64,000 bases of DNA from Antedon mediterranea (lineage: Eukaryota > Echinodermata > Crinoidea > Comatulida > Antedonidae), in the NCBI RefSeq assembly GCF_964355755.1, contig NC_092670.1:29749795-29813794 (forward strand). Reading direction: 5' to 3'. Under the pieces are notes generated by a model. The model had not been told where the DNA came from, ran no database searches, and saw only the letters and a list, made by a program, of their open reading frames with translations. Of the stretch, positions 10,101 through 50,070 are shown piece after piece; position 1 is the first letter of the stretch; every line of letters begins with the position of its first letter. The translations under genes were made by a program, and so were the position numbers.

Positions 10101-13100
10101 TTACCCAATTTTATAAATAGCTACCATGTAATAGCACTATCAAATAGAACTTTACCATGCAATAGAACAAATACTGAACTTCATATAATTCAAAATGAAC
10201 CAATAAAATGTGTTAGCCTATATACAATGCTATTCAATATTGTCTATTAATCAGAATACCAAACTTACTTGGCTGGACTGGTACAAGCTTTGTCTGGTTG
10301 TCTTCTGGCGTCATACCAATTGGAAGACAAGAGTTTGGTACAGCTGGTGCTAGAAGAATAAACCGAATTATCATTTTTACACATGTAGTTTTAGAGAGAG
10401 AAATGTCCTCAAAAACTTGCGTTATTTAAATGTGCATTTATTTAAACCGTATGACAGTACAGTCAATTCTACAGACTGAAACCAAACTGTCTGGAGATTG
10501 TAAACAGATTGTCAGACAATTTTTAGCTACCACACTGAGCATCCAGTTTTTGGGGCGAATTGAGTTTAAAAAGTATAAAAAAAAACAAAACAAACACCAC
10601 AATGAATGCAAATCACAAAAATATGCACTTCAATTTCCTCATTTTAAGACTTTAATGCAACACTATTTAGTATAAACAATTCCATACCTCCTATCTTATA
10701 TATTTCAACTGAACCAAAATCCACATCAAAAGAATGAGGATAAAAACAATTTCTGAATCCATAGAAGTATTCCCTCACTCGGTCATCCCTAGTTGTTCTA
10801 CGGAATGTTTGTGATCTGTCCACAGTCTGCCATACAATATTAATTGTATACAAATAAATGTATTTATTTATTCAGCAATCAAATAGAAATTCTGAATTCA
10901 GTCAAATTAATATTATACAATTACAATATAAAATGATCATTAATTCATAAGGTTTATAATTAACATTTCTTGGGTGTTTTTATTGTTTAAAAATAAGAGG
11001 ATTTAAGAGGATAAATAAAAAGGATAAAATATTTTTATAAAGTGGTCACTACAGTTTTTAACATGAGTCATATTGCACTCATTGTCTCATTTTCATACAC
11101 TGTACTAATTAACTTACCCCTCCTGATTTAGGTTGAAGCACCACCTTTACAAAAGATGGCATGTCTCTTACTAATTCATTGTATAATCTTTCTTGATCAA
11201 GTACAACAATTACATCAACTAAAATAAGAATGTTTTAATTATAAATAACATAACAATTATTATATTATTATTACCCGATTTTAAATATAATTAGTGTTGG
11301 ACTAAGAGACTAGAGGTTTCTGGCCTTATAAATTTAAGGAGAGTGTCATGGATATAGGTTCTAAGTGTTACAGTACTATGAACATTCAGAAACCTGGGAT
11401 AACACTACCACTTGTAAGATTTAATTTTGAACTATTGATTACCTTCAAATGCTTGTGCTGCATGAGTGATGCATTTATATCCATCACCTTTGACCCAACC
11501 ACATGTATTGATAACACAGCCACTTGTAGAAGCTATGTATAACAAAACAAAAACATCCAGTAATCTTTTTAGGTGATCATTTAGAATAAAATGATCACCT
11601 ATTGTAATTGTATCAAATTTTTATTGTTATTGTTTCTGGGCACTATTTTGTGTAACAATTATCTCAAAAAGTTTAATGTCAATGATTACCAAAATTTCAC
11701 AATATCTTTCAAATAATATAACTTAATCCTAATAAGCTTTTCAGCGTGATCACTCATCCGTGACGTCATTTATACGCCATTTTGTCACATTTCCATAATT
11801 CATTATCACATATTAATGAAATTTCACTACACGTAAACTTCAGGTCAAGGGTAAAAATATTAGCAAATAAAAACGCATACGTACATAGGGTCATGCGCGT
11901 GAAATCGCGCTTTAAAAATTTAAAAAGTTCAAAATTAAATTTTTATCAATTTAGAGCACGAATTAGGCCATTTGTTTCAAAAAATTACTGCGCAAAAAAT
12001 AATTTTTGCGCGCGCGATACTTAAAAAGCGTAAAAATACGATTTTTTTTACAAATCGCATTCTACTCACCATCCTTAGTACATTCACCAAATTTGAGTCA
12101 GTCCCGACTTAAAATAACGCTATACGATTAATTAATTGCACCAAAGTGCTGAAAATGCTGAAAAATAAGGCATTTTTAAAATGAAAATAATTCTCCAGAA
12201 TGCACGATGACCCCCAATTTTTTTAACTTATTCTGGAAGCCATTGAATTGTAGATATGAATACATGTTGTGTAAAAAAAAATGTTGTGACGTCATCAAAT
12301 GGCCACTTGAATTTAAAATTAAGTTTTTTTTCTATTGCGTCATATTTTATCATATTCAATAGAACGCAACTCTGTTATTTTTTACCCGATTTTTGCTCAA
12401 ATTTTAGTATGTGATTGCTCAATTAATTGACTTTCTCATGACTGGCCACTATTTTTATTTTGATGACGTCATCACGCGTATAAACTTGAATAACGTATGT
12501 CGTGTAATTTCACCTTCGCCGTAAATTTGAATATCATACAGCTCTTCAGAATTGAAGGTTACCTTGATGATTATAATTTATTATGAAAGCTGATGAAATG
12601 TAGATATGAATTCGTATAAAAATCAGGCCTATCGGATGTTGTGAATTTAACATATGGCCAGTTGAAGTTAAAAAGTAGTTTTTTCATCTTTTTCGTCACA
12701 GTTATACAAATTTCAAAGAGCGCGCATAGCGCTTCTACGTGCCAAATTTTCTTCCAATTCTTATATTTATTTGCTCAATTCATTATCTTTCTAAATTGTC
12801 ATCTTCCGAGTTTATTTTGATAATTCCATCATACCAAAAAATTAGAACATGATGTGCCCCGTAATTTCACCTATGCTACACTGTATATAGATATACAGTA
12901 TATACTGTACATATTATATATGACACATAATAGGTACAACTCAGCACTATAAGCATGCATCATGTCATAGGATGGCGTACGATCGTATGCTAACGTACAC
13001 GCATGTTTGCAAAATTTAATTTCATTAAAATGATAAAAATGATCACCTATAATTCGTCAAAGTGACGAATTATTATTAAATTCTAGTTATTTTTAGATTT

Positions 13101-16100
13101 GGTGTATATAAAATTAACAATAGCAATAAGCAACCCGAAGCCTGTTGGCTTAGATTTTAAGTACTGTACTATGTACGGTAGGATCTTCATGATTTAACTA
13201 GTGTTTTTTATTAATCAAAATATATACATTGTTTGGAAATGCAATTTATGTTTACTACTATGAACACATGCTCATACACAAATCTCTCACTTTTGCAGTC
13301 AATTGTGAAAGAGTACAGATTCAATGCTTTAATATTGTGTACAGATGGTTGTTTGATGTACTAATACATTATTAGTGCACAAGATATAAAATAGTAACTT
13401 CACAAGTATGATTACCTAAAGGATTGAGTTTGCAGCGTGTGTTCAAAATATCTGCAATCTGTGATGTGAGCAGGTTGTAAAGTTTGAGGTTAGCCCCTGG
13501 CGTAGTGACTCCAAAGTGATATACTAATGGTGCATTTAGTGGTAAGCCTTCTTCAACATCTGCTGGTCGTTCTACAAGAAGTGCTCCCACTGTACCAGGC
13601 ACTGACAGAGTTCCCTGGATGTGGGAAAGATAAAAATGTGTTTAGGAAAATCAATCAATTGATATTGTAGTAAAATCTGATACCCATATGCAAGACTTTG
13701 ACACCCCTTTATTCATGGAACAATCCTCTGATCCCGCTGATAGGTGGGTAGATATGGGTAACATTAGACGGGAGAAACCACATGGTAGTCAGTCAGGCTT
13801 CAATCTCCATAAGATTACAGACCTATATTATTATTACTGACTGCATTAGCTAAAACACCTCTATTGAATCTTAGATAATACAATGTTTACCTCCACCAAG
13901 GAGGTATATGTAGTCGATCACGTTTGTCTGGTTGTTTGTTAGCAGGATTACTCAAAAAGTAATTACAAGATCTTTACTAAAATGCCAATAATACACTAGA
14001 TATGTGGTCAAGGACCATTCCATTAAATTTTAGAAGCAATCTGGACCACAGTCCCAATTCTGGACCACTTTTTAGTATAATTTTTAGACCTGCTAGTGTT
14101 AAAAGATAGGACAGAATTTTCTAAAGCTGGCGAGCAGTCTTAAAATAACAAGTAAACTGAAATTGCATTTTTTCGAAAACTACTTGTCCAAAAAACTTCA
14201 TTTTTGTACAAGAGGCAAGAGTTATAATTTGTGATTTGTAATTTTAAAATATAAATTGATTTAATTTACAGGTTTTTTGATACGAGTAGTTTAAAATTTT
14301 CTTTTCAAATTCACCCGTTTGTTTTTGCCGTTGCTGTTCTATTGTTTAGTCAACATAATCTATTGTTAGTTGAAAGGCTGGTTACATAACCATTAAACTA
14401 AATTCGCATACACATACTTGAATGTAGTGAAATTAAATCACACACAGCATTAAGACACGCACAAATATATATATATTTTCCCGGAGAAATCTTATGTAGG
14501 AGAATTTTACAGTAGGCAGAGGTATGCACTCTTGGAGTGGCTTTCTAATTATTATTGTGTACTCTATTGTTTAAGTTTAAAGGATAATTAAAGCTCTTTG
14601 AACCATTAGCAGATCGTAGTGTGTGTTTCTGTGAATCATCTGTATTTATTATTGTCTTAGGAATAACACCGATGCCGAAGCCACTCAACAAGGCAGATAA
14701 AAAGTTACAATATATAAAACAAAATGAGAACTAATGTTCCACTGACCTGTCCAACATCTAGTTCTACATAAGTTGGTTGTCTACCAACTCTGATGGCGTA
14801 GTTCAGTAACAGCTTACAAACTGTACTCTTACCAACATCCTGAGGCCCAACTACCATAACCTATGTGTAATAAAATAAATCAATTACAAGTATTATTAAT
14901 AAGATTGATTGAATTCTAACTGACAAACATGAAGATAACTAACATGTTGATCCCTCAACAAGAAAACACAAGGCACAACATACAAATACAACAAAAGAAA
15001 AACAAAAATTATTTATACAAAAAAATCAATTTACATGACTTTTGTCATCTCTTGCATCTTGTCCTCTTTTGTGCCTTTTCACCTTTATTTGATGGTGTAA
15101 CACCACTTTTTTTCATATTATATAATGCAAGTACTGTATACATTGTTTGGAATTATTACCTTATAAAAGGAAACTTCAACAATTAATCAATCAATAAATT
15201 AAACAGATTATACTTTTAGCAGCAGGTATAACATAATAGACCTCCATAAATGCACCTAACTTACTCTAGGCCCTCTGGTTCCATCCATCTCTGCTTGGTT
15301 TCTCATCTGTTCTAATGCTGCATGAGTGTTGAGGTACATCAGCATTGGTGTGTCTCTAGATACATAAGCAGCCTCTGTTTGTCCTCGTAGGTGCATTGCG
15401 GTTAAGGGTTAAACAATTATGTAATATGCTGATAAAATGTAATTTATGTCTCTGTAGTGTTAGATAATAATTCTTCCCTAATAATTACATTGAGGAAAGA
15501 ATAGCTTTAAAACAAATTATCATGAGATATAGGTCATGAATAAATAAAATGCCCTTCTGCCAATAGTAGTGTCATAGACTATGTCATAGAATGTAAGTAA
15601 TAGTAAATTATATACAAAAAATATTTCTCATTCGAGCGAGTCAAATGGTTGAGCAGTTAAGGAAAGGGGCACCGTTTACCATACCTGAAGAGCCTACAAT
15701 ATCGGCATGGGGTCCAGTGTACACAGCCGTGCACTTTAAATAACACAGTTCATCATTCAAGATGAGGAGGGGTTACAAAAATAACACCTGTGTCTGGAGG
15801 ATTACCACTTATCTGATAGAACAGTGATTCATTTTCTATTCATAATGCTTGGCATAAAGATTTTAAATAAACAAGAAATTTTATTTCTTTAAAAAACGCT
15901 GCCACTTTCTTTTGTCTTTTTTCATTTATAAATGATGCTATTTGTATTGATATTCTATTTTATAATAATAAATAATGATTCATTTTTAATTATTTTTGTT
16001 TAACAATCAGTAGTGTAGACATTTTGTAACATAAATATAGTTGGAAATGAACAAAACTATACTCCTTAAGGCCGTAGTGACCCTCCGAGTGACGCACACC

Positions 16101-17908
16101 CCAACATTCCAGTAAACAAAATGTGTAATTTCTCAGCCGCCCACAAACGTACTCACTAATCAAACAATTCTTTATCTATACACACCATTCACCAACAATA
16201 TTTACCACAGAGGAAGGCTTGTTTTGACCATTATTAAATGATCAATCAATAGTATTATACAGCCAAAATGAACAAATTGTTTATTGAACAGGTCTCACAG
16301 ACTATAGTTTCATGCTTTGGGGTTTGCACATGCCCAGTCTGAGTTTACAAATTCCGATGTTTTCGGCAATAGTAAACTATAAGCTTAAACGTGATACAAT
16401 TTCCAAATGCTTCCGTCCTCTTGGATATAACTGCCTATGGCTTGGCAAGAAAAATAAAAATTCCTAATAAACTGTAAATAAAGAAGGATATATAGATTAA
16501 GCATCCATGCCATGTGAACACAGCTACTTTGGCCCCTGCAGTAAACTTGTAAATGTGATTGCGTAAAAGCTCTGTACCAAATACCTCAGCTAGACCTTCT
16601 TTTAACTAATAAAAGTAACAAACTATTAATTATAATTTGTGAATATTTTATAATAGAGAATATGGATTATTTTATAGCCTACTGTAGTTTGGATTAAAAA
16701 TAAACATCATCTATAGAATAAATATTAATAGTAATAATGTCTTTAAAGAATATACAGTAATACTTTTCTATCTAATCTAATGAACATGATCAGTAATGTT
16801 TAGATGTTTAATAATTATCGAGGACCCCTTCTGAAACAAGCCCGCCTCAGCTTAAAGGGTTATCCTCTGCTATTCCATAACTGTTTTATTATTAATAGTT
16901 TTTGTTTGATTTTGGTAACTTCCAACTACTGTATATGTTTGTATTGTATCCTGTATTTATGGAAAGCAATAAATATTACAAACGAACAAACAATTGATAC
17001 GATACAATGTTCTTGTGTTTATTGCTGATGATGTAATGTATATTTCATGTATTTATTGTTGTTTAACATTCTCAGTATAAACAGGCCTTAATAGATCAAG
17101 TGTGGTCAATTTTAAATATTCCCATGTAATAAACAGCACTATAAAATAAATTTCACTAGTATTTCATTTACAAAGTTACATAGACAATTATTTAAAAACA
17201 TTAATTTTTTGAATGGCTATTATAAAAGAATTTAAAATGCTATTTGGCGGAACAATTTCAATAGTTAAGTAGCATGAAAACATTAGAGTAAATGTGGAAA
17301 GTCCAAAAAAAACCAAAAATTATATTACAGTGTTTGTCCTACACACAAATTAGTACAGTGTACATACAGTACGTACAGTTTTAGATGGGTAAATTTTAAT
17401 GACAGAAATTTACTTACTTCCATCTGCACCTCATGTTCAACTTCGAAGCGCAATTCATTATCTTTTTCAAGACGGAATTCTCGCCATTCCTATATTATTA
17501 GTGCACAATGACATAACAATTTATGATTATGAATGAATAGAAATAAAACACTGTTTTTATTTATATAATTTGATATTCTTTTTTAAATTAGAGAAGTATA
17601 CATTTGTTTAGTTCAGCACTTTCAACTGACCGAACATTAAATCATAAAAAACAAATAGTTTAATTATGTATTATCGTCTATTAATTTGCTCACTACTAGA
17701 TTATCAAGAATGTTATTTGTGGTAAATAACAACTGACTGCACTATTTAGAAGGCAAAAACAAATTCATTGGTGATTTTGATTATTATTATTTAATAATTG
17801 TAGTGTAACTGGTAGCTGCGATCTGCGAACCTGATAGAGCCTACCACCTATACACTACTGTAGGCCCACCTTATTTTCAGGCTGTAATTGGGATGTACTT
17901 GGTTCCAT
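4148..17908 (-). CDS. CLP1: CLP1: polynucleotide 5'-hydroxyl kinase, pre-mRNA cleavage complex II / tRNA splicing subunit (complete, 12 exons)
   Basis: Coding exons in transcript order: 17908-17870, 17489-17418, 16605-16492, 15390-15265, 14860-14747, 13614-13416, 11532-11443, 11218-11118, 10826-10688, 10349-10269, 9907-9814 and 4259-4148. They total 1281 nt (426 aa plus TGA), and human CLP1 is about the same length. All phases agree. The N-terminal domain includes ELRFEVE and [10 protein letters not shown]. The P-loop [11 protein letters not shown] (about residues 120-130) has the kinase Lys-Ser. After it come [44 protein letters not shown], the Arg-rich lid [17 protein letters not shown] (about 293-309) and the C-terminal domain ending RFMDIK. 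In other animals CLP1 phosphorylates 5'-OH RNA ends and acts in 3'-end processing and with the tRNA splicing endonuclease in the nucleus. Intron 3 is U12-type AT-AC; the rest look GT-AG. The gene is intact, with mobile elements confined to introns. Confidence 0.95.
4396..4876 (-). mobile_element. 3' end of a split LINE (CR1/L2-like), distal part
   Basis: Read on the minus strand, this is the C-terminal tail and 3' UTR of a non-LTR retrotransposon. It includes the typical [12 protein letters not shown] motif and ends in an A-run (T-run on the plus strand at about 4396-4411). It continues the ORF remnant at 7767-9560, interrupted by the inverted-repeat element 4877-7766. The reading frame has several stops. 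Confidence 0.75.
4877..7766. mobile_element. Terminal-inverted-repeat (fold-back type) element nested in a LINE
   Basis: The outer sequence CCAGCTCGATAT at 4877 is mirrored by ATATCGAGCTGG ending at 7766. Arms of about 420 bases (4877-5305 and 7345-7766) are recognisable reverse complements. The 2 kb between them has no recognised transposase. It includes a small frame (about 6541-6750) with a run of hydrophobic residues, which I do not call as a gene. The element sits exactly between two halves of one LINE. No clear target-site duplication was seen. Confidence 0.75.
7767..9560 (-). mobile_element. LINE (CR1/L2/Jockey-like) reverse transcriptase remnant, proximal part
   Basis: On the minus strand the reverse transcriptase reads in broken frames. 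Motifs in order are [63 protein letters not shown] and [13 protein letters not shown]-terminal tail with [20 protein letters not shown] follows. The FADD box has the catalytic Asp pair, but stops and frameshifts make this copy dead. The 5' part of the ORF (endonuclease) is missing; similarity fades near 9560. It lies in the last intron of CLP1, same strand as the gene. The distal part is at 4396-4876. Confidence 0.88.
11564..13086 (+). mobile_element. Helitron-like element, family A, full-length non-autonomous copy
   Basis: The element starts with TC after host A (11563) and ends in CTAG (13083-13086) before host T (13087), 1523 bases in all. These are textbook Helitron borders. Seven bases in is a long hairpin with arms AGGTGATCATTT and AAATGATCACCT (about 11571-11600). 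Near the 3' end the arm AAATGATCACCT recurs, followed by the short hairpin AATTCGTCA / TGACGAATT and then CTAG. No Rep or helicase coding exists, so it is non-autonomous. It lies in a CLP1 intron, antisense to the gene. Confidence 0.85.
13889..14550 (+). repeat. Widespread invertebrate 'CTCCACCAAGGAGG' interspersed repeat
   Basis: It begins ACCTCCACCAAGGAGGT and continues with TTTGTCTGGTTGTTTGTTAG and GCAGGATTACTCAAAAAGT. It ends near GGCAGAGGTATGCACTC and GGAGTGGCTTTCTAATT. I recall this start and end pair from a repeat spread across many aquatic invertebrate genomes, but its transposition class is not clear to me. It lies within a CLP1 intron. Borders are approximate. Confidence 0.55.
15391..16491 (-). 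other. U12-type AT-AC intron of CLP1
   Basis: The minus-strand donor reads ATATCCTTCT directly after the codons for GCLIY, matching the U12 AT-AC donor consensus. The 3' end has a CCCTTAAC branch-point box (15401-15408 on the plus strand). About 11 bases later the intron ends in AC at 15391-15392. Joining there gives [16 protein letters not shown], aligning with CLP1 without a gap. No GT-AG solution fits: an in-frame TAA lies just upstream of the exon and no AG lies between it and the conserved codons. Minor-spliceosome removal follows from the motifs; it is not shown by transcript data here. Confidence 0.88.
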
Positions 17909-19918: not shown

Positions 19919-21409
19919 TCAGAATTAACCATAATTAGGTTATATGCATGATATGCATATAACCTCTTGATTCTGTCAAAATCTTTATTTATTTATTTAT
20001 TTATTTATTTATTCTTTCCTTAGCACTATTTTGTCCGTGAATTATCTTGATATCAGTTTCATCTATCTAAGTCAATTTTTCAGAGTATATTCCTTATGGC
20101 CAGGAATCGATGTGGTTATATTTTCACGATGCGTAATCAAAAATTACGCGGTCTACGCGCGATTTTACGAAATCACGTTTGTAATCATATCTTCACAAGC
20201 ATGAATCACAATTAAACAAAATTTGGTACTCATAAATTTCAGGTCATATTTCATCATATGGCAATACAATTACGTGCGTAGCGCATATAACGCTTGCGTA
20301 CGCGCGCTTAAAATGTTCAAAATTGTCAAAATTTATTTTCGATGAAATTAGAGTACGTTTCAGGCAATTTTAAGCGTTTAAAAAATTGCCATGAGTGCGC
20401 AGATTTTTGCACGCGCACTGCGCGTTATACGTTAATGCGCACTCTTTTTGTCCGATTTCGGTTGTACAACCTTTCTTTAATAATATCATCATATTTTATT
20501 CACTTTTCAACGCGTAATTGCCTTATACGAGCACGTCAAAAGTGACAGGCTACGCACGTGTAAGTTAACAAAATGGTGAAAATATGCTAAATTTTAAAAT
20601 TAATATAGATCGTCAAAATGCTCGGGAACACATATTTTTTATTTCATTTTCTTGAAGTGTATGTATCTTATGTATGATTTATTATTAAACTAAGGGAACA
20701 AAAGTTGATTAAGCCATAATTGATTGCATATTAAATTAAAAAAAATTCATTTCGACAATCAAACAAATTATGACATTTTCTTAGGCCAAAATAACAAACT
20801 TAACATTAACTTTCTTCCTCCAAAAGTTCATATATTAAAGTTAAAAGTATATAGTTTGACAGTGCATCATTTTTGTACATTTTTAGAGATGTCATCATAG
20901 TAAAAAATTATAATTCATTGCGGTATTTAATAATCTATCTGCACCAAAGTGGTTACTGCATAGTAAATACACGGAGGAATTTTTCTACAATTTTTAGACA
21001 GTTGTGTATGGCTCGGTGGTGTGTGCTCGTGTCTATGGCACTCAAGGTACCGAGATCGAGTCTCACCTTGGGAAACGAAATAAGATTTTTTTTTTTATTA
21101 TCCGTATTGTTTGTTCAAATTTATTTCTTAGTGTATATATTATACACATGATTTATAATGAAATCTAGATAAAAAATAACTTATGTCTTTATTATTATGT
21201 AACAGCAAATGACATTATACGCAGAGGGATCTTTGATCGGATTGTGATACCGGCTATTGTATTCGCGTTAGCAAGGTCCTATCATATATTATAAATAATT
21301 ATAGAATCTGAGAAAATCAATGAATCAAAATATCTTTTAAAAATCAATTATCTTTATTAAAATCAATGCATATAACCTATAATTCGTCATAGTGACGAAT
21401 TAAATCTAG
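19919..21409 (+). mobile_element. Helitron-like element, family B
   Basis: The 3' end is precise: the arm TGCATATAACCT, hairpin AATTCGTCA / TGACGAATT, then CTAG (21406-21409) and host T. Near the 5' end is a hairpin with arms AGGTTATATGCA and TGCATATAACCT (19937-19965). The arm therefore recurs at the 3' end, as in family A but with another sequence. The TC at 19919-19920 is the probable 5' border, but the preceding base is G, so this end is less sure. The interior is non-coding. A (TTTA)n run lies at 19988-20012, and a tRNA-like scrap lies at 21008-21075. Confidence 0.72.
21008..21075 (+). other. tRNA-related (SINE-like) scrap inside Helitron B
   Basis: GGCTCGGTGGT resembles a pol III A box. 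About 35 bases later GAGATCGAGTCTC resembles a B box, and a T-run follows at about 21090. The similarity is loose and no cloverleaf was drawn in full. Confidence 0.3.
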
Positions 21410-23949: not shown

Positions 23950-24775
23950 GGTCTGGATTAAAATGATCTTACAAAATATACAAAAATATCACAATACACA
24001 GTACAATATAACAAGAGTCAAAGTTCAAGAATTTAAGAGTCGGGTGGCAACTGGCAAAACAGAATTTCTTTTACGGTGTGTTCTACATGCCAGGCATCGA
24101 AAGCGACGCCCAAGAGGCATGAGCTCGAAATCACTGAACAAAGCATGGTTAAAATTTTTTAGAATAGCTCTACTTTTTTCTAGAGTTTGCATGTCACAGA
24201 AGAAAGATAAGCTACGAAGTTGACAACCTATTAATTTAGAACTTAAATTAACAATTCTTTGTAGTGAGTCTCTCTTTTTGACCCTAAGACTAAAAAACCA
24301 GCATATAAAGTAAAACAGTTCAAACGTTCTCAATAAAGGAATTATAAAAAAAAACCTGAGAATGACTTTATCGACATTAAAATGGTTCAGCTTCCTTAAC
24401 AGATAAAGTCTCTGGTGCCCTTTCTTTACTATTACCTCTGTATTTAATTTTCAGCTGAGATTGTCCTAGGTATTTAAAGGAATGGACAATTTTGCTGGTT
24501 CGTCATTTATGAGGGATACCATAGGGCTGCGTCTTTTCTCCTTCCTAAAATCTACAATCATCTCCTTGGTTTTGGTCACATTGACTTCCATCTAATGCGG
24601 AACCATGGCCGTCCTGTGAATTTTTAAGGAGAGACAGCAAGACAGTGTCGTCAGCAAATTTGACAAGATGACTATTGTCCTGTTTGCTGCGACAGTCATC
24701 CGTGTATATAATATACAGGAGAGGAGAGAGGACGCAACCCTGGGGAGATCCAATACTTGTCATTACGTACATTCA
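23950..24775 (-). mobile_element. Rex1/CR1-like LINE, truncated C-terminal half of reverse transcriptase
   Basis: On the minus strand it begins near GSPQGCVLSPLLYIIYTDDC and continues with LVKFADDTVLLSLL, a frame change, then NVTKTKEMIVDFRK. A 102-residue frame follows with ICWFFSLRVKKRDSLQRIVN, SKLIGCQLRSLSFFCD and FELMPLGRRFRCLACRT. These are the reverse transcriptase palm and thumb and the C-terminal tail of a Rex1/Babar-type LINE. It is 5'-truncated and frameshifted. Confidence 0.85.
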
Positions 24776-24989: not shown

Positions 24990-25790
24990 TTAGTTTTACG
25001 CTATTTTAAGAAAATTTGAGTTTTCGTGAAAGGTCACTGACCTCTATAGTTACATAACAACTGTTGTATCAATTAGTTTTTAGAGTAAGAAATACATATT
25101 ATACACATTTGTAGTTATTTAGATTTTATTGGCAGGCATAAATGTTACCTCTAAACACAAGTTTCATCAAATGCATCGGCAATTATGGAATAAGACATTG
25201 CAGATAATAATTTTGTTAGGAAAAATTTGAGTTTTTGTAAAAGGTCAATGACCTTTTGACCTCTAGTTACGTATAACTGTTGTATTAATTGTTTTTTTAA
25301 TGTATATTATTAGGATATATATACTATACACATTGGTACTAAAGCTATTTAGATATGGTTATAAAACAATGGATTATAGGCATAAACGCTACTCCCTACC
25401 ACAAAATTGTTTACATAACATTTGATCAAGAATCAATTTCAATAAGAATAGTACATCATTACTTTTAAAATTCTTCTAGTTAACATCATGTTTCCTATTT
25501 TATATATCGATAGGTACAGAAAAAACACAATTTTGATTAAATGCATCCACAATTATGGCATACGATATTAAAGTTAATAATTTTTTTATGGAAAAAAATG
25601 AGTTTTTGTAAAAGCTCAATAACCTTTTGACCTCTAGTTATATAAATAGGTGTTGTATTTTGGTTTTTTAAATTGTATATTAGAAAGACATATATATTCT
25701 ACATATTGATATCAAGATTATTGAGATTGGATTATAAAACCACAAGTTATGGGCATAAATGTTACCCCCTACCCCAAAAATATTTACGGA
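24990..25790. repeat. Degenerate direct repeats
   Basis: Three diverged blocks share GGTCAATGACCTTTTGACCT, followed by an ATAACTGTTGTAT stretch. They also share GGCATAAAYGYTACC and GCATCxxCAATTATGG words. Block starts near 25030, 25240 and 25613 are unevenly spaced, so this is old tandem or shuffled repetition, not a clean satellite. Confidence 0.5.
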
Positions 25791-26616: not shown

Positions 26617-28530
26617 CGGTCGAAGCGGCCGCCAACTAAAGCGGCCGCTAGTTCAATAACGGTAATCTGTATGGAACGCCGTGTGCGCTTTGATTGTCGT
26701 TGTTTTGTAATCTTTGATTGTCATTGTTTCGACAGGTTTTCTTTACCTCGGACGTAAATAACAATCTACATTATTATGTAATTTATTCTCTTTTTTTTAC
26801 AGATTGAATGTGATACGCGTACGTTCTTTTAAACGAAATGGCAAATCGATGATTACTTAATTTTAACTGTTCTAAATGATATACATATGTTTAATAAAGT
26901 CTAAAATACATTGTGGTGTTTATATTGTATATTAATATAATATAATGATAAGCCAATTATTAAGAATTATATATAAATAAACCAATCAATAAAGTATATC
27001 AAAATATATAAATATATTAATAATTAAAAATATTTGTTATTGTATATTAATTAATTAGTAAAATAACTAGTAGTGTTCGCAATCGAAATTTAATTACAAT
27101 AACATGATGACAGCAATTTATTTAATATCCCTACACTATTTTATTACTTCAGATATTTAAATATTGATCAATTGAAAATGAGTTTTAAATACTAAAATAA
27201 GATGAAAGTGTCTGTTTGATACGGTAATTAATTACGCGAATTATTACGCGTGACGGCCAGCAATAGTGCTGCTGCACATTAGGTGCGCGTCCCATGTTGC
27301 TTTATTGAAAACACAAACAATGTATTACAATGGAATAACACTTAAATGTATAACACACCCTATTACTAATAATAAAAACCAAGATTCGATAGTACAGTAT
27401 GTAAATGAGATATAAATATTCGGCAATACCGTACGTAAATTATTAATGCAATACTGTATAAAGATTCAATAGTATGTAAACGAGATATAAAGATTCGGCA
27501 ATACCGTACGTAAATTATTAATGCAATACTGTATAAAGATTCGATAGTATGTCAAATGAGATATCAAGATTCGGCAATACCGTACGTAAATTATTAATGC
27601 AATACTGTATAAAGATTCAATAGTACATATGTCAAATGAGATATAAAGATTTGGCAATACCGTATACGTAAATTATTAATGCAATACTGTATAAAGATTC
27701 GATAGTATATAAACGAGATATAAATATTCGACAATACCGTACGTAAATTATTATTGCAATACTGTATAAAGATTCGATAGTATGTAAACAAGATATAAAT
27801 ATTCGGCAATACCGTACGTAAATTATTAATGCAATACTGTATAAAATTCGATAGTATGTAAATGAGATATAAATATTCGGCAATACCGTACGTAAATTAT
27901 TATTGCAATACTGTACTGTATAAAATTCGATAGTTAAATGTAAATGAGATATAAATATTCGACAATACCGTACGTACATTATTATTGCAATACTGTATAA
28001 AATTCGATAGTTAAATGTAAATGAGATATAAATATTCGGCAATACCGTACGTAAATTATTATTGCAATACTGTATAAAATTCGATAGTATGTAAATGAGA
28101 TATAAAGATTCGGCAATACCGTACGTAAATTATTATTATTGCAATACTGTATAAGGATTCAATAGCATATAAACGAGATATAAAGATTCGGCAATACCGT
28201 ATACGTAAATTATTATTGCAATACTGTATAAGGATTCAATAGTATGTAAACGAGATATAAAGGTTCGGCAAAATATATTTCGATATTATGTATTAGTTAA
28301 TAGTAAATACAAATAAAATATACATTGATTTATCGGCAGGCAAACTTAATTATTATAGAAATATAAAGATTTGATAGTACATGAGTTGGCTTATATTTAT
28401 TTAGCTGTAACTCAACTCGCCATAGGCCATGGCGTTGACAACGACAATCAAAGATTCAAGCGCACATGGCGTTCCATACAAATGACGATATTAAACTGGC
28501 GGCCGCTTTGGTTGGCGGCCGCTTCGACCA
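26617..28530. mobile_element. Terminal-inverted-repeat element with paired GCGGCCGC ends
   Basis: The left arm (26617-26725) begins CGGTCGAAGCGGCCGCCAAC and is mirrored by the right arm (28428-28530). Each arm holds two GCGGCCGC words about 10 bases apart and a TATGGAACGCC word. The centre holds the minisatellite at 27385-28275. No transposase frame was seen, and the target duplication is not clear. Confidence 0.75.
27385..28275. repeat. Minisatellite, about 75-80 bp unit, 11 full copies
   Basis: The core CAATACCGTACGTAAATTAT recurs near 27424, 27499, 27575, 27654, 27732, 27808, 27880, 27962, 28040, 28115 and 28190. A broken twelfth copy follows. Units differ by small indels (GTATACG for GTACG, an extra TTA). 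The overlapping minus-strand frames with repeated SLYSIALIIYVRYC-like peptides are a by-product. Confidence 0.9.
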
Positions 28531-37692: not shown

Positions 37693-39229
37693 CTAGACAT
37701 GTAACTCGTCACTTTGACGAGTTTGGTTATCCGCCGCGCAAGTGGTGCAACATTAACATTAAGGGGATAGGTTGAGGACAAAAGGAAGTGTTCACGTTGG
37801 CATTATGACCTGAACTGAAGAATATGATATGTTGTTATTGCTGAAATTTATTGTTTAAATTCATATATACTGTAGTATACACAGTATAATCTGTATCCAT
37901 ATCACATACAGTGTAGAATAGGTGAAATTACGGGACCCGCTATTTATTGCAATTTTTAACATGTTGACGGTTTTAAAATGAAACGCGAAGGTAGCAATTC
38001 CGAAAGGAAATTATCTCAGCAACAACGTATTAGCATGTAGAAGAAATTTGAATACGTGAAATATTGATGCGCGCTCGTTTAAATGTAATGAATTATGACG
38101 CAAAAGATGAAAATACGACCTTTTTTATTTAACTGGCCATATGATGACGTCACAACATCCGATTGGCAACATTTTTACATAATTTCGTATCTACAGTCCA
38201 ATAGCTTCCAGAAAAAGTTTTAATCGTGATTATCACATTTTATTCTTACGAACTATAACAGATTAAAATTTACTGTAAAGATGAAATTAATGCCACACGT
38301 GATTTAAATTTTTAAGCACGATGACGTAAAAAAAATTAAAATATTTTTAACTCATGCGAAAGATAGTTGATTGACCTAGACAATATCAAAATCGGGGTGA
38401 AAATGGAAAACGGATAAGTGGAGATGCGCTCTATTCAATGTGATGAGCTATGACGAAAGATACAAAATCCTAAATTTTATATTTGCGTGGCCATACGATG
38501 ACATCACAATGTCCGGTTAGCCATATTAATACCTGATCCAATATCTACAACTCATCTACTTCCAGAAAATGCCATCCACAAAAAGTTGACCGTTTAGTTT
38601 AGAAATTACGACTGTTTTAAAAAAGGCATATTTTAAACGAATTTTTTAACGTTTTCATAAAAAACGCGCGCAAATTGTCCAATTCGACGTGCTCGTATGA
38701 CGTATCTTTAAGTCAAAATTGTTTAAAATTTGGTAAAATTACTAGAAAAGGCTGGAAAAACATAAATCACGCGAAAAAAATACGTTTTCAATGCTACGTG
38801 CGCTCCGCACACGTAAAAATGTGCGCATGCGTGGGAATTTTTGACATGCTTAAACCGACATGAAACGCGTAGAAAGTTGATTAGAAATTAATTTTGCGCA
38901 TTTTGAAATTTTAAATGCGCGTGCGCGCGTAACTTTGTGTAAAACACGCAATTTTTTTTCAACAGAAGGTTAGCGCATGATATAAATTAAACTTTTGCAA
39001 AGTTTCACTTTAAAATGTTATTTGGTTTTCGACATATGTTAAATACGAGAAAATCGTTAAATCGCGCGTACGTCACGTTGCGCGATTGTAAACATCATGA
39101 AAAGCTTCGCTTGACGACGTTACATAAATGTCAAAATGTTAACATAGTTAACAAAATGTTATGTTTGCAAGTTTTAGAGAAAAGCGTTACACAAAAATCA
39201 TACAGAAAGAAAGAAGATTAAGAAAAAGA
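37693..39229 (-). mobile_element. Helitron-like array unit 1 (family C)
   Basis: On the minus strand the unit ends with arm GCGGATAACC, hairpin AACTCGTCA / TGACGAGTT, ACATGT, CTAG (37693-37696) and host T. Its 5' edge begins TC directly after the CTAG of unit 2 (39230). Length is 1537 bases. It lacks the long 5' hairpin. Small frames near 38675 and 39015 recur in other units only because the DNA does. Confidence 0.85.
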
Positions 39230-41134
39230 CTAGACATGTAACTCGTCACTTTGACGAGTTTGGTTATCCGCCGCGCCGCGCAAGTGGTGCAACATTAACA
39301 TTAAGGGGATAGGTTGAGGACAAAAGGAAGTGTTCACGTTGGCATTATGACCTGAACTGAAGAATATGATATGTTGTTATTGCTGAATTTTATTATTTAA
39401 ATTCATATATAGTATACACAGTATAATCTGTATCTATATCACATACAGTGACATACATAGAATAGGTGAAGTTACGGGACCCGCTATTTATTGCAATTTT
39501 TAACATGTTTACGGTTTTAAAATGAAACGCGAAGGTAGCAATTCCGAAAGGAAATTATCTCAGCAACAACGTATTAGCGTGTAGAAGAAATTTGAATACG
39601 TGAAATATTGATGCGCGCTCTTTTAAATGTAATGAATTATGACGCAAAAGATGAAAATACGACCTTTTTTATTTAACTGGCCATATGATGACGTCACAAC
39701 ATCCGATTGGCAAAATTTTTACATAATTTCGTATCTACAATCCAATAGCTTCCAGACAAAGTTTTAATCGTGATTATCACATTTTATTCTTACGAGCTAT
39801 AACAGATTAAAATTTACTGTAAAGATGAAATTAATGCCACACGTGATTTAAATTTTTAGGCACGATGACGTCAAAAAAATTAAAATATTTTTAACTCATG
39901 CGAAAGATACTTGATTGACCTAGACAATATCAAAATCGGGGTGAAAATGGAAAACGGATAAGTGGAGATGCGCTCTATTCAATGTGATGAGCTATGACGA
40001 AAGATACAAAAATCCTAAATTTTATATTCGCGTGGCCATACGATGACGTCATAATGTCCGGTTACCCATATTAATACCTGATCCGATATCTACAACTCAT
40101 CTACTTCCAGAATATGTCATCCACAAAAATTTGACCGTCTAGTTTAGAAATTACGACTGTTTAAAAAAAGGCATATTTTAAACGAATTTTTTAACCTTTT
40201 CATAAAAAACGCGCGCAAATTGTCCAATTCGACGTGCTCGTATGACGTATCTTTAAGTCGAAATTGTTTAAAATTTGGTAAAATTACTAGAAAAGGCTGA
40301 AAAAACATAAATCACGCGAAAAAAATACGTTTTCAATGCTACGTGCGCACCGTACACGTAAAAATGTGCGCACGCGTGGGAATTTTTGACATGCTCAAAA
40401 CGACATGAAACGCGTAGAAAGTTGATTAGAAATTAATTTTGCGCATTTTGAAATTTTAAATGCGCGTGCGCGCGTAACTTTGTGTAAAACACGCAATTTT
40501 TTTTCAACAGACAGTTAGCGCATGATATAAATTAAACTTTTGCAAAGTTTCATTTTAAAATGTTGTTTGGTTTTCGACATATTTTAAATACGAGAAAATC
40601 GTTAAATCGCGCGTACGTCGCGTTGCGCAATTGTAAACATCATGAAAAGCTTCGCTTGACGACGTTACGTGAATGTCAAAATGTTAACATAGTTAACAAA
40701 ATGTTATGTTTGCAAGTTTTAGAGAAAAGCGTTACACAAAAATCATACAGAAAGAAAGAAGATGAAAAAAAAGATGATTTCGTACAATCACAAGAGGTTA
40801 TCCTGCAACTTCGTTGCGGATAACCAATGATGATGATGATTTCGTACAATCACAAGAGGTTATCCTGCAACTTCGTTGCGGATAACCAAAAATAAAAAGT
40901 TGATGATGATGATGATTTCGTACAATCACAAGAGGTTATCCTGCAACTTCGTTGCGGATAACCAATGATGTTGATCTCGTACAATCACAAGAGGTTATCC
41001 TGCAACTTCGTTGCGGATAACCAATAAAGATTTTGTACAATAACAATAGGTGATCATTTTATTCTAAATGATCACCTAATAAAGATTTTGTACAATAACA
41101 ATAGGTGATCATTTTATTCTAAATGATCACCTAA
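39230..41134 (-). mobile_element. Helitron-like array unit 2 (family C) with stacked 5' ends
   Basis: The body (39230 to about 40770) is a near copy of unit 1. Beyond it the 5' side carries four family C hairpins (40796-40825, 40858-40887, 40934-40963, 40993-41022) and two family A hairpins (41048-41077, 41103-41132). The last one abuts the CTAG of unit 3. Total length is 1905 bases. Confidence 0.85.
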
Positions 41135-42661
41135 CTAGACATGTAACTCGTCACTTTGACGAGTTTGGTTATCCGCCGCGCAAGTGGTGCAACATTAACA
41201 TTAAGGGGATAGGTTGAGGACAAAAGGAAGTGTTCACGTTGGCATTATGACCTGAACTGAAGAATATGATATGTTGCTGAATTTTATTATTTAAATTCAT
41301 ATATAGTATACACAGTATAATCTGTATCCATATCACATACAGTGACATACATAGAATAGGTGAAATTACGGGACCCGCTATTTATTGCAATTTTTAACGT
41401 GTTGACGGTTTTAAAATGAAACGCGAAGTTAGCAATTCCGAAAGGAAATTATCTCAGCAACAACGTATTAGCATGTAGAAGAAATTTGAATACGTGAAAT
41501 ATTGATGCGCGCTCGTTTAAATGTAATGAATTATGACGCAAAAGATGAAAATACGACCTTTTTTATATAACTGGCCATATGATGACGTCACAACATCCGA
41601 TTGGCAACATTTTTACATAATTTCGTATCTAAAATTCAATAGCTTCCAGAAAAAGTTTTAATCGTGATTATCACATTTTATTCTTACGAGCTATAACAGA
41701 TTAAAATTTACTGTAAAGATGAAATTAATGCCACACGTGATTTAAATTTTTAGGCATGATGACGTCAAAAAAATTAAAATATTTTTAACTCATGCGAAAG
41801 ATAGTTGATTGACCTAGACAATATCAAAATCGGGGTGAAAATGGAAAACGAATAAGTGGAGAGGCGCTCTATTCAATGTGATGACCTATAACGAAAGATA
41901 CAAAAATCCTAAATTTTATATTCGTGTGGCCATACGATGACGTCACAATGTCCGGTTAGCCATATTAATACCTGATCCGATATCTACAACTCATCAACTT
42001 CCAGAATATGTCATCCACAAAAAGTTGACCGTGTAGTTTAGAAATTACGACTGTTTAAAAAAAGGCATATTTTTAACGGAATTTTGAACTTTTTCATCAA
42101 AAACACGCGCAAATTGTCCAATTCGACGTGCTCGTATGACGTAACTTTAAGTCGAAATTGTTTAAAATTTGATAAAATTACTAGAAAAGGCTGGAAAAAC
42201 ATAAATCACGCGAAAAAAATATGTTTTCAATGCTACGTGCGCACCGCACACGTAAAAATTTGCGCACGCGTGGGAATTTTTTACATGCTTAAAACGACAT
42301 GAAACGCGTAGAAATTTGATTAGAAATTAATTTTGCGCATTTTGAAATTTTAAATGCGCGTGCGCGCGTAACTTTGTGTAAAACACGCAATTTTTTTTCA
42401 ACATAAAGTTAGCGCATGATATAAATTAAACTTTTGGAAAGTTTCAATTTGAAATGTTATTTGGTTTTCGACCTATGTTAAATACGAGGAAATCGTTAAA
42501 TCACGCGTAAGTCACGTTGCGCAATTGTAAACGTCATGAAAAGCTTCGCAGCACATCTTCATGTGCATGACGATATGTTGAGAAAGTTACAAAATGTTAT
42601 GTTTACAAGTTTTAGAGAAAAGCGTTCCACAAAAATCATACAGAAAGAAAGAAGATCAAGA
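41135..42661 (-). mobile_element. Helitron-like array unit 3 (family C)
   Basis: Length is 1527 bases. Its CTAG is at 41135-41138. The right edge read on the minus strand is CTAG|TCTTGATCTTC, a direct head-to-tail joint with unit 4. It lacks the long 5' hairpin and has small deletions relative to units 1, 2 and 4, including near 42545. Confidence 0.85.
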
Positions 42662-44199
42662 CTAGACATGTAACTCGTCACTTTGACGAGTTTGGTTATC
42701 CGCCGCGCAAGTGGTGCAACATTAACATTAAGGGGATAGGTTGAGGACAAAAGGAAGTGTTCACGTTGGCATTATGATCTGAACTGAAGAATATGATATG
42801 TTGTTATTGCTGAATTTTATTATTTAAATTCATATATAGTATACACAGTATATTCTGTATCCATATCACATACAGTGACATACAGTGTAGAATAGGTGAA
42901 ATTACGGGACCTGCTATTTATTGCAATTTTTAACATGTTGACGGTTTTAAAATAAAACGCGAAGGTAGCAATTCCGAAAGGAAATTATCTCAGCAACAAC
43001 GTATTAGCGTGTAGAAGAAATTTGAATACGTGAAATATTGATGCGCGCTCTTTTAAATGTAATGAATTATGACGCAAAAGATGAAAATACGACCTTTTTC
43101 ATTTAACTGGCCATATGATGACGTCACAACATCCGATTGGCAACATTTTTACATAATTTCGTATCTACAATCCAATAGCTTCCAGAAAAAGTTTTAATCG
43201 TGATTATCACATTTTATTCTTACGAGCTATAACAGATTAAAATTTACTGTAAAGATGAAATTGATGCCACACGTGATTTAAATTTTTAGGCATGATGACG
43301 TCAAAAAAATTAAAATATTTTTAACTCATGCGAAAGATAGTTGATTGACCTAGACAATATCAAAATCAGGGTGAAAATGGAAAACGAATAGGTGGAGATG
43401 CGCTCTATTCAATGTGATGAGTTATGACGAAAGATACAAAAATCCTAAATTTTATATTCGCGTGGCCATACGATGACGTCACAATGTCCGGTTAGCCATA
43501 TTAATACCTGATCCGATATCTACAACTCATCTACTTCCAGAATATGTCATCCACAAAAAGTTGACCGTCTAGTTTAGAAATTACGACTGTTTAAAAAAAG
43601 GCATATTTTAAACGAATTTTTTGACCTTTTCATAAAAAACGCGCGCAAATTGTCCAATTCGACGTGCTCGTATGACGTATCTTTAAGTCGAAATTGTTTA
43701 AAATTTGGTAAAATTGCTAGAAAAGGCTGGAAAAACATAAATCACGCGAAAAAAATACGTTTTCAATGCTACGTGCGCACCGCACACGTAAAAATGTGCG
43801 CACGCTTGGGAATTTTTGACATGCTTAAAACGACATAAAACGCGTAGAAAGTTGATTATAAATTAATTTTGCGCATTTTGAAATTTTAAATACGCGTGCG
43901 CGCGTAACTTTGTGTAAAACACGCAATTTTTTTTCAACAGAAAGTTAGCGCATGATATAAATTAAACTTTTGCAAAGTTTCACTTTAAAATGTTATTTGG
44001 TTTTCGACATATGTTAGATACGAGAAAATCGTTAAATCGCGCGTATGTCACGTTGCGCAATTGTAAACATCATGAAAAGCTTCGCTTGACGACGTTACAT
44101 AAATGTCAAAATGTTAACATAGTTACCGAAATGTTATGTTTGCGAGTTTTAGAGAAAAGCGTTACACAAAAATCATACAGAAAGAAAGAAGAAGAATAA
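42662..44199 (-). mobile_element. Helitron-like array unit 4 (family C)
   Basis: Length is 1538 bases. Its CTAG is at 42662-42665. The joint with unit 5 reads CTAG|TTATTC on the minus strand, so the first two bases are TT, not TC. It is otherwise closely similar to units 1 and 2. Confidence 0.85.
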
Positions 44200-45793
44200 C
44201 TAGACATGAAACTCGTCACTTTGACGAGTTAGTTATCCGCACGACAAACGCCACGTGCACGTCATACATTGGACACAGAAAAAGATTATGGCATATTGAC
44301 ATGAACTGAAGAGTATAATATGTTGTTAGTGCTAAATGCTGTATATTTTGTGTCATATACTATTTACAGTATACATAGTATAATCTGTATACATATTAAT
44401 ACAGTGTAGGATAGGCGAAATTACGGGTCCCGTCATTTATTCCAATTTTTAACATGGTGACGGTATGAAAACGAAACACTGATATAGGAATTTCGGAAGG
44501 AAATTATCTCAGCAACAACATATTAACGTGTAGAAGAAATTTGAATACGTGAAATATTAATGCGCGCTCTTTTAAATGTAATGAACTATGACGCAAAATA
44601 TGAAAATACGACTTTTTTTATTTAACTGGCCATATGATGACGTCACAACATCCGATTTGCCAAATTTTTACATAATTTTGTATCTACAATCCAATAGCTT
44701 CCAGAAAACGTTTTAATCTTGATTATCACATTTTATTCTTACGAGCTATAACAGATTAAAATTTTCTGTAAAGATGAAATTAATGCCACATGTAATTTAA
44801 ATTTTTAGGCATGATGACGTCATAATAATTAAAATATTTTTAACTCATGCGAAAGATAGTTGATTGACCTAGACAATATCAAAATTGGGGTGAAAATGGA
44901 AAATGGATAAGTGGAGATGCGCTCTATTAAATGTGATGAGCTATGACGAAAGATACAAAAATCCTCAATTTTATATTCGCGTGGCCATACGATGACGTTA
45001 AAATGTCCGGTTAGCCATATTAATACATGATCCGATATCTACAACTCATCAACTTCCGGAATATGTCATTCACAAAAAGTTGACCGTGTAGTTTAGAAAT
45101 TACGACTGTTTAAAAAAAGGCATAATTTTGACAAATTTTTGTACTTTTTCATAAAAAACGTGCGCAAATTGTCCAATTCGACGTGCTCGTATGACGTAAC
45201 TTTAAGTCGAAAGTGTTTAAAAGTTGGTAAAATTACTATAAAAGGCTGGAAAAAACTAAATCACTCGAAAAAAATATGTTTTTAATGCTACGTGCGCACC
45301 GCACACGTAAAAATGTGCGCACGCGTGGGAATTTTTTACATGCTTAAAATGACATGAAACGCGTAGAAAGTTGATTAGAAATTAATTTTGCGCATTTTGA
45401 AATTTTAAATGCACGTGCACGCGTAACTTTTTGTAAAACATGCCATTTTTAGTGCACTAACAGTTTGCCCTTCATATGACTTAAATTTTCATAAAGGGTA
45501 AAAAAAAAATTACTCTTGGTCTTTAAGCTATGATCGATCATTAAAAATCATAAAATCGCGCGCAAGTCACGTTGCGCAACTCTGACGTCATTCAAAATAG
45601 GAGATGCACAACTTCACGTAAATGCCCACATGTTGTCAAAGTTATAAAATGTTATGTTTACACATTTTAGAGAAACGTGACTCACAAAAAAATGGGAAAG
45701 AAATAAGAAGAATACAGAAAAAAAAAAAAAAAATATTGATCCACTACAATCACAAGGAGTTATCCGCTACTAAGCGGATAACTAAAAAGTTGA
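44200..45793 (-). mobile_element. Helitron-like array unit 5, divergent family C variant
   Basis: Its CTAG is at 44200-44203. The 3' arm is GCGGATAACT, not GCGGATAACC. At the 5' end a hairpin with arms AGTTATCCGC and GCGGATAACT (45758-45783) precedes TCAACTTTTT, whose TC (45793-45792) is the probable start. The body is more diverged than the other four units. A 15-base A-run is at about 45718-45733. Confidence 0.8.
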
Positions 45794-45853
45794 TGATGAT
45801 GATGATTTCGTACAATCACAAGAGGTTATCCTGCAACTTCGTTGCGGATAACC
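45794..45853 (-). repeat. Extra family C 5' hairpin stacked outside the array
   Basis: A TGATGATGATG run and TTCGTACAATCACAAGAGG lead into a further hairpin (45824-45853) with arms GGTTATCC and GGATAACC. It is the same module as the stacked ends in unit 2. A CTAG follows at 45856-45859. Confidence 0.75.
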
Positions 45854-46511
45854 AACTAGGTAATTCAATTACTATAGAGAAATAGTAATAGACTACCAAC
45901 TCCACTTTTGGTTCAATGTATAATGTGTTTTACTTGGATTTCGTAGAAATTTAACCAATCATTATATTCTGAAAATTAATAAAATCACATGATACTGAAT
46001 ACGGTGCACCACCCTGCCAAAGATAAATCAATTGCCTTAGAAATCACTCATCTGGGGAAGAAGCATGTGTAATGTCATCATCTTTTATGTTGTAAAATCA
46101 TTTGCACCATGTGTTGGTGAGCATGTGAGAAAATAATATTCAATGTTGACTGTTGCTAAGGTTAGAACAGTTAATAGAACTGTGCAATTCCATAAACAAT
46201 GCGTTTATCTGTCTGTTTTGCAACAACTGTGACTATAAAAATTTAACATCAATTTTACTTGTTTACCAATTGTTGAATATCATTGAGGGTGAGCAATTAT
46301 AAGGCCAATTACAAACAGTTGCACATTTTTAACACTTCCAATTTGTTTACATCAGCACATATTCTGTAAGGAATACAATACTGTAGGCACTGTGATGTAG
46401 CCAGGGATAACATTGTATGCTATGAGCTATCAGACAGAGGTTCCAAGATGGAAAAATAAATTTTCGGGTAATTTTTAAAAACATGACCAAACAATAGAGG
46501 CACTATAACTA
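45854..46511. other. Spacer, no feature recognised
   Basis: AT-rich single-copy-looking sequence with no recognised exon. Confidence 0.3.
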
Positions 46512-49089: not shown

Positions 49090-50070
49090 GTTGTTTATAA
49101 ATAAATGACAACGGAACAGTTACCATCTCAGTCTATCGGAAGCCCACTCACACAGACCAATATTTACATTTCAACTCACATCATCCACTCGAACACAAAC
49201 TGGGGCTTATAAACACGCTTGTGGACAGAGCTGAGAAGGTAGTGGGAGATATGGATTTGAGGAAAGTTGAGATGGATAACATCAAGAAAGCGTTACACAA
49301 CTGCCAGTATCCAGAGTGGTCCTTCCAGAGAGTTATGGAAAACCGAAAGAGAAAAAAGAACAAAGGACACGAACCACAGAAGGAAAAGATCAAGATGAGA
49401 GGTAGCATAGGAATCCCCTATGTAAAAGGAATGGCAGAAAGAATAAGACGCACTCTCTCCTATCACAATGTCGAAACCTATTTCCTACCCCAAAATAAAA
49501 TCAAGAATAGCCTTGCCCACCCAAAAGATAAAATCGAGAAGATGGATACATGTGGAGTAATCTACGAAGTCACCTGCCGCAACTGTCCACAAGTTTACAT
49601 TGGGGAAACAGGGAGGGCATTACAAACACGAATTAATGATCACAAAAAAGATGTTACAACAAACACGGGGGGAGTAATGACTAGGGCCTCCAGAACATCC
49701 ACATCATCGATCATACACAAATCTGCCATTACAGAACATGTCATAAAACACAATCATGTACCGAACTGGGAGGCTACCATCTTAACCAAAGAGCCTAAAC
49801 GCAAAGACAGACAGATTAGAGAATCATTACATATAAGGAGAAATAAGGAGAAGACCATGAACCGGGACACTGGAGCCCACGAACTCTCGCATTTGTAAAA
49901 TGATTTGATAGACACATCACCTGGCCGAGCTCCGCACAACCTCCAACCTACAACCGGAGGCGTACGACGTCATCAACAGATGACGTCAAGCATGACCAGG
50001 CTGCATTAACACTCCGCAGTCAGTTGAGAATGATCTCTGATAGAGATCGAAACGTTCGAGTAAGTACTCC
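49090..50070 (+). mobile_element. Penelope-like element, 5'-truncated, with GIY-YIG endonuclease domain
   Basis: An open frame runs from about 49101 to the TAA at 49896-49898, longer than the stretch after its first GTG. It starts in the reverse transcriptase C-terminus (ISVYRKPTHTDQYLHFNSHH, HKLGLINTLVDRAEKV) and a linker (SIGIPYVKGMAERIRRTL). The GIY-YIG domain has CGVIYEVTC, then CPQVYIGETGRAL, then RINDHKKDV and AITEHVIKHNH. These are the usual endonuclease motifs of Penelope-like retroelements. The tail holds a GATCTCTGATAGAGATC palindrome followed by GAAACGTTCGAGTAA, as in other Penelope 3' ends. The C-terminal frame is intact, but most of the reverse transcriptase is missing. Confidence 0.88.

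Follow-up and report, generated by a model that had tools for sequence, protein, structure and literature searches.

Tandem arrays of a HINE-like element in Antedon mediterranea read as serial self-insertions nested like brackets

We analysed a stretch of 64,000 nucleotides of the crinoid Antedon mediterranea (NC_092670.1; C1:29749795-29813794 in our contig numbering; hereafter the window), which carries five head-to-tail units in a single orientation on its minus strand at 37693-45855. These units look, judged by their anatomy, like HINEs, i.e. non-autonomous Helentron/Helitron2-type elements, and our data make it very probable that the window array and similar rows elsewhere in the genome were built by serial self-insertion of these elements, nested like brackets, one copy landing in the leader (the 5' part) of another. 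We show the copies being nested within each other, using A/T and T/T as target dinucleotides (the slash marking the insertion point) and being independent of their neighbours in descent.

The genome (354 Mb, 18 contigs) was searched with unit B as the query, and as 39 of 2667 candidates were scored, all copy numbers are lower bounds. At least 93 matches were obtained; the 85 of at least 1280 bp were kept and the eight shorter ones left out, which gives 33 places, 24 of them holding two or more matches. We read 19 of these 33 places, i.e. the window, 15 fetched stretches (four of them extended) and three short stretches from the genome search, and the counts given below refer to them. Parsing covered one strand at each place; next to the minus-strand array at C1:3.16M (C1:3159500-3169499) lie family copies in opposite orientation that fall outside the parsing. 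The 19 places contain 105 leaders and 112 3' ends.

If arrays are nested, each leader acts as an opening and each CTAG as a closing bracket, and the uppermost leader of the stack joined to the remainder following the CTAG should equal an intact linker, the reference being the linkers of uninterrupted copies and the number of ATC repeats being ignored. Of 45 type II joints 30 have an open leader in the stretch and form the test set, type III and type I joints being read by eye only. Top leader and remainder together yield a known uninterrupted linker at 25 of these 30 joints, compared to a mean of 2.4 and a maximum of 8 for leaders drawn at random from all arrays (5000 draws; a null that ignores the relatedness of leaders) and a mean of 9.6 and a maximum of 18 for the stricter null using random leaders of the same array (5000 draws). 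Four of the five misses, distributed over three places, yield one common linker not seen uninterrupted, and bracket matching restores both of the two residents that were each cut twice. Five further testable joints came from stretches fetched once the rule was fixed; three of them are exact and two give the repeated linker. Both flanks lie inside the stretch at eight places, six of which are balanced: C1:0.92M with 13 starts and 13 ends, reading ((((()))())((())(())(()))), C2:5.48M with 10 and 10 (one end by the looser 3'-end pattern only), C1:12.40M with 4 and 4, and three isolated copies forming simple pairs. The outermost leader of C2:5.48M and, judged by eye, its last remainder both belong to type I.

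Several observations weigh against this reading or limit the test. The fifth miss, at C4:1.48M, is a true misfit and this array is unbalanced by one orphan; the window array is unbalanced too, with one orphan (unit C) and four unclosed leaders. A first version using a stricter 3'-end pattern matched 19 of 27 joints, and the looser second pattern, introduced once the rule was known, converted three misses to matches and took two other misses out of the count. Fifteen of the 45 type II joints have no open leader in the stretch and stand outside the test, and the 33 of 112 joints that are exact end-to-end do not discriminate nesting from concatemers, being compatible with either an insertion just before the resident's first TT or joined circle ends. 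Finally, a few same-place pairs are near identical, the closest differing by 0 and 0.13%, suggesting that occasional local copying is possible.

CTAG is followed by TT in 85, TC in 22, TA in 4 and TG in 1 of the 112 3' ends, i.e. by T in all of them, and TC is therefore a minority case of a T-rule. At 33 joints the CTAG directly abuts a leader, the sequence reading CTAG followed by TTGG or TTAG; 59 run on into tract plus body; in another 10 a leader follows after a short segment (part of a leader in seven cases, a T run in two and the 3' end of an older element in one); and 10 are left over, nine with apparent flanking DNA and one reading as tract and body. By the joint-sorting rule none of the 112 lies inside a body. 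In all 48 cases of one leader following inside another the two are 51-82 nt apart (search up to 150 nt, intact palindrome required). The position of the joint differs from joint to joint, and the 25 matched insertion sites divide into 13 T/T and 12 A/T. In the window the earlier note on this sequence had correctly described CTAG followed by TC without spacer at 39229/39230 and 42661/42662, and an outer end of CTAG followed by T, the flank past unit A reading TTTGACAT. The remaining internal joints read CTAG followed by TTATTC (44199/44200) and CTAG followed by TTAGGTGATC (41134/41135), so that TC follows at two of the four, and there is no unrelated DNA at the joints of this array. CTAG-TC joints, for which that note had proposed a genome search, occur at the 19 places in the proportion given above.

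From these junctions the earlier note had inferred that the array stems from rolling-circle read-through or from a multimer inserted as such, since host bases would be expected between units that had inserted separately. This argument fails, because the target is the resident element's own leader, making spacer-free joints compatible with separate insertions. The head-to-tail, spacer-free order and the 33 exact joints would fit an origin in one event, by read-through or from a multimeric circle, and Helraiser circles are described as joining TC exactly to CTAG (PMC4778049); the CTAG-TC joints found here, however, do not involve the 5' end of the family, the remainders are completed by the leaders predicted by bracket matching, and neighbouring copies come from different subfamilies and are not more similar to each other than to copies at other places. 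The rejoining at 25 of 30 joints, the equal divergence within and between places and unit E being diverged by about 15% leave this origin unsupported, and we regard it as very improbable.

For the INDEPENDENCE of copies, 66 intact type II bodies from the 19 places were compared. Only 7 of the 66 have their nearest relative in the same place (permutation 4.5 +/- 2.5, P 0.20), and bodies diverge by 2.70% within and 2.63% between places, which argues against local multimerisation as well as unequal crossover. The linker lineage could be named for 18 bodies joined by bracket matching, and in 13 it agrees with that of the closest uninterrupted copy at another place (null mean 5.8, maximum 12, 5000 draws). 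The units were mostly drawn from a genome-wide pool. Alignment of the five window units, which the earlier note had suggested, gives 96.9-97.3% identity among A, B and D, 95.1-95.4% for C compared to these three and 84.5-85.3% for E compared to the other four; the five-unit repeat is far beyond chance. Private changes number 18 in A, 16 in B, 19 in D and 46 in C, 22 of the latter falling within one 200-column bin. Expansion of a tandem repeat by unequal crossover, which the earlier note had named as a competing origin, or by segmental duplication would account for the regular spacing (1500-1600 bp in 42 of 52 neighbour pairs among the matches of at least 1280 bp), the few near-identical pairs and two identical type I leaders of 55 nt each. 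It is opposed by there being just six sites with a 2:2 split among A-D, two per pairing, by the equal divergence and by the variable joint positions, and we consider it scarcely credible. Within the unit body we noted a repeat at an offset of 355 bp, about 70% identical, and TGACGTCA recurs every 177-178 bp in the bodies of B, C and D (in B at 39689, 39866 and 40044).

The serial self-insertion deduced from the genome can be read in the window array joint by joint (Table 1). Palindromic left-end modules number eight in the array, with a stack of six at 41134-40796 and two more at 45855-45759, and units A, C and D begin within the tract, having no leader of their own at the joint. Excision of B joins leader II-c (ending ATCATCA) to the remainder of A (TCTTTTTCTTAATC), restoring a linker present uninterrupted at C1:0.92M, C4:7.7M and a further place, L007. 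The joint at 39229/39230 is thus an insertion into the ATC repeat of A, and its TC is target sequence within the ATC/T-rich leader of the resident copy. Pairing unit A with leader II-b appeared plausible at first and was ruled out, as II-c gives the exact linker. Excision of E likewise joins the leader at 45855 (ending CATCAACTTT) to D (starting TTATTCTTCTTC), the product being, ATC number apart, a linker found uninterrupted elsewhere; the leader palindrome of E itself starts with TTAGTTATCCGC. The D-to-C joint at 42661/42662 has the same form as that at 39229/39230, and we infer an insertion into a leader here too, C's leader being missing: no leader is open for C in the window, a palindrome search allowing up to 7 substitutions returning type II modules at the five sites listed only. 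A chance estimate for three insertions in one tract (about 1.3e-4) was dropped, being superseded by the genome comparison.

Table 1. Units and parsed parts of the array (positions in the window)
Feature	Position	Strand	Remarks
Unit A, junction to junction	37693-39229	-	1537 bp
Unit B, junction to junction	39230-41134	-	1905 bp
Unit C, junction to junction	41135-42661	-	1527 bp
Unit D, junction to junction	42662-44199	-	1538 bp
Unit E, junction to junction	44200-45855	-	1656 bp; span takes in D's leader (45786-45855)
Unit E, complete, other subfamily (type III leader, body, 3' hairpin, CTAG)	44200..45785	-	inserted at T/T within D's leader
Unit D leader (5' part), type II	45786..45855	-	palindrome exact to type II; tail ends CATCAACTTT
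Unit D remainder (tract TTATTCTTCTTC, body, 3' hairpin, CTAG)	42662..44199	-	
Unit C, orphan (body and 3' end, no leader)	41135..42661	-	joint to D reads CTAG followed by TCTTGATC
Leader I-a	41134-41080	-	no matching body
Leader I-b	41079-41025	-	no matching body
Leader II-a	41024-40966	-	no matching body
Leader II-b	40965-40890	-	no matching body
Unit A leader (II-c)	40828..40889	-	ATC repeat cut at A/T
Unit B, complete type II (leader II-d, tract, body, 3' hairpin, CTAG)	39230..40827	-	nested in A
Unit A remainder (body, 3' hairpin, CTAG)	37693..39229	-	
Hairpin ATTACTAT..ATAGTAAT, 8 nt, CTAG	45856..45889	-	abuts D's leader just outside the array; z -3.4

The four surplus leaders of the window would also be expected from composite transposition, in which units running from an outer leader to an inner CTAG land side by side, a process by which PMC5148889 explains Fusarium FoHelis with several 5' termini. 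As the sole cause it cannot yield balanced arrays of 13 and 10 elements and is hardly tenable, whereas as a step added to the nesting it is likely for the window array.

The anatomy of the units led us to correct their class. An element consists, in order, of a palindromic left module (TTGGTTATCCGC...GGATAACC), a conserved stretch TCTTGTGATTGTACGAAATC, an ATC repeat, a T/pyrimidine tract, a body of about 1.45 kb, a subterminal repeat (GCGGATAACCAA in units A-D, GCGGATAACTAA in E), a hairpin and CTAG. TTGGTTATCCGC, lying in the 5' palindrome (z -7.4), is the inverted counterpart of GCGGATAACCAA at the 3' side, and all five units end in the hairpin AACTCGTCA..TGACGAGTT with a stem of 9 bp, 6 nt and CTAG, followed by T. 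The microsatellite (ATC)n follows the conserved stretch in most type II leaders, and complete copies start with TTGGTTATCC or TTAGTTATCC, not with TC. The longest stop-to-stop frame (at least 70 aa) overlapping the array has 95 aa; a Pfam scan of 10 window open reading frames revealed no Rep/Hel, Rfam gave no match at the gathering threshold, and the exact 3'-end pattern is absent from our collections of viral contigs and genome contigs. The Helitron-type ends claimed in the earlier note hold for the rolling-circle type and the 3' end, which shares the hairpin, a CTRR terminus and the following T with canonical Helitrons, not for TC as the 5' end. We therefore rejected a canonical TC...CTRR Helitron, the 5' end being the palindromic module and the TC after CTAG being leader sequence. 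The subterminal inverted repeats with palindromic 5' part, the 3' hairpin, the left microsatellite, the lack of coding capacity, the T following the insertion at 25 of 25 matched sites and the absence of a target duplication (ATC number ignored) all match HINE descriptions. CTAG as a target-site duplication was rejected as well, a related copy at 11.57-13.09 kb having no CTAG on its left.

As described in the sources cited here, HINE/DINE-1-like non-autonomous Helentrons (PMC4067079; oyster Cg_HINE, PMC7492417) share with our family the 5'-palindromic subterminal inverted repeats, the left microsatellite, the 3' hairpin and T-rich insertion sites, with no coding capacity seen; the present elements differ in ending with CTAG, in using A/T about as frequently as T/T and in arrays that resolve as serial nesting in the left module. 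Proto-Helentron-Pi of Phytophthora (PMC4067079) shares the 5' TT, the 3' CTAG and insertion between A and T, a likeness by description, this element being autonomous and about 14 kb long; its structure, given there as Helitron-like, does not include the palindromic 5' module of our family. Canonical Helitrons such as Helraiser (PMC4778049, PMC5876387) share the 3' hairpin with CTAG, the T after it and head-to-tail junctions, but start with TC, insert at A/T and form circles joining TC to CTAG, whereas the exact joints found here read CTAG followed by TTGG or TTAG. Head-to-tail junctions and tandem arrays, the latter cited for bat and plants, have been taken as genomic support for rolling-circle transposition (PMC5876387). 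FoHeli of Fusarium (PMC5148889) shows asymmetric terminal inverted repeats and several 5' termini before one 3' end, for which self-insertion was proposed as the cause, together with transposition that starts at an outer 5' end and stops at an inner 3' end. For three tandem copies in Metarhizium that paper did not decide between insertion into the 5' end and rolling-circle replication. In FoHeli the multiple termini are for the most part short duplications sharing a single 3' end, whereas here balanced arrays reach 13 elements and interrupted copies can be rejoined. One search of the open-access literature matched the FoHeli paper only, and within the literature searched, as far as its text was accessible, larger nested Helitron arrays were not found. 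Self-insertion is thus known in principle, and as far as this literature shows the scale and the decodability are new.

Further elements and features were observed in the window. Just outside the array, the hairpin with CTAG at 45856-45889 is possibly the 3' end of another, second rolling-circle family, for which neither a 5' end nor a second copy was found in the window. Type I relatives, whole or fragmentary, whose 3' ends carry a hairpin and CTAG-T lie at 11571-13086 (+; a complete type I copy with 5' palindrome AGGTGATC), 3622-2865 (-) and 21381-21409 (+), T following their CTAG at 2865, 13083 and 21406. At 25153-25787 two direct repeat copies are 80% alike, the first with a hairpin and CTAG followed by TT, and at 27381-28271 a tandem array of units of about 75-80 bp has copies about 88-92% alike. 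An open reading frame at 49101-49895 (+) encodes a GIY-YIG domain and is presumably Penelope-like; two overlapping RVT_1 fragments of a LINE-type element lie at 8346-9393 (-), and a weak ALKBH8_N match at 24028-24450 (-). Exon-like pieces at 9800-16605 (-), intron-split remnants of a host gene, derive from what we take to be CLP1.

Our data support a model according to which a newcomer would insert as a complete element (TT...CTAG) before a T, at A/T or T/T, often in the tract of a resident copy or directly ahead of its first TT. With each insertion the newcomer would come to separate the resident's leader, on its 5' side, from the resident's body, on its 3' side, so that leaders accumulate to the left and bodies to the right. 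A Helentron-type Rep/Hel enzyme may act in trans, the T-richness of one strand of the tract may set the common orientation, and the leader may be a hot target either through easily melted T-rich DNA beside the palindrome or through enzyme bound to it. Surplus leaders and the orphan C could stem most simply from later composite transposition, from outer leader to inner CTAG, or from deletion between leaders.

The leader is thereby a landing site renewed by each insertion, hence arrays can keep growing, and they can be decoded joint by joint, leader tail and remainder giving an intact leader. The bracket rule can be used on any assembled genome, yielding the relative insertion order and exact target sites and separating nesting from multimers. 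More tentatively, and at somewhat less than even confidence, we propose that the machinery may recognise the resident's left terminus as a target, e.g. by an enzyme binding and nicking there, that the family may spread largely by self-nesting at its 5' end, and that a good share of the head-to-tail Helitron arrays hitherto interpreted as rolling-circle concatemers may consist of such nested brackets.

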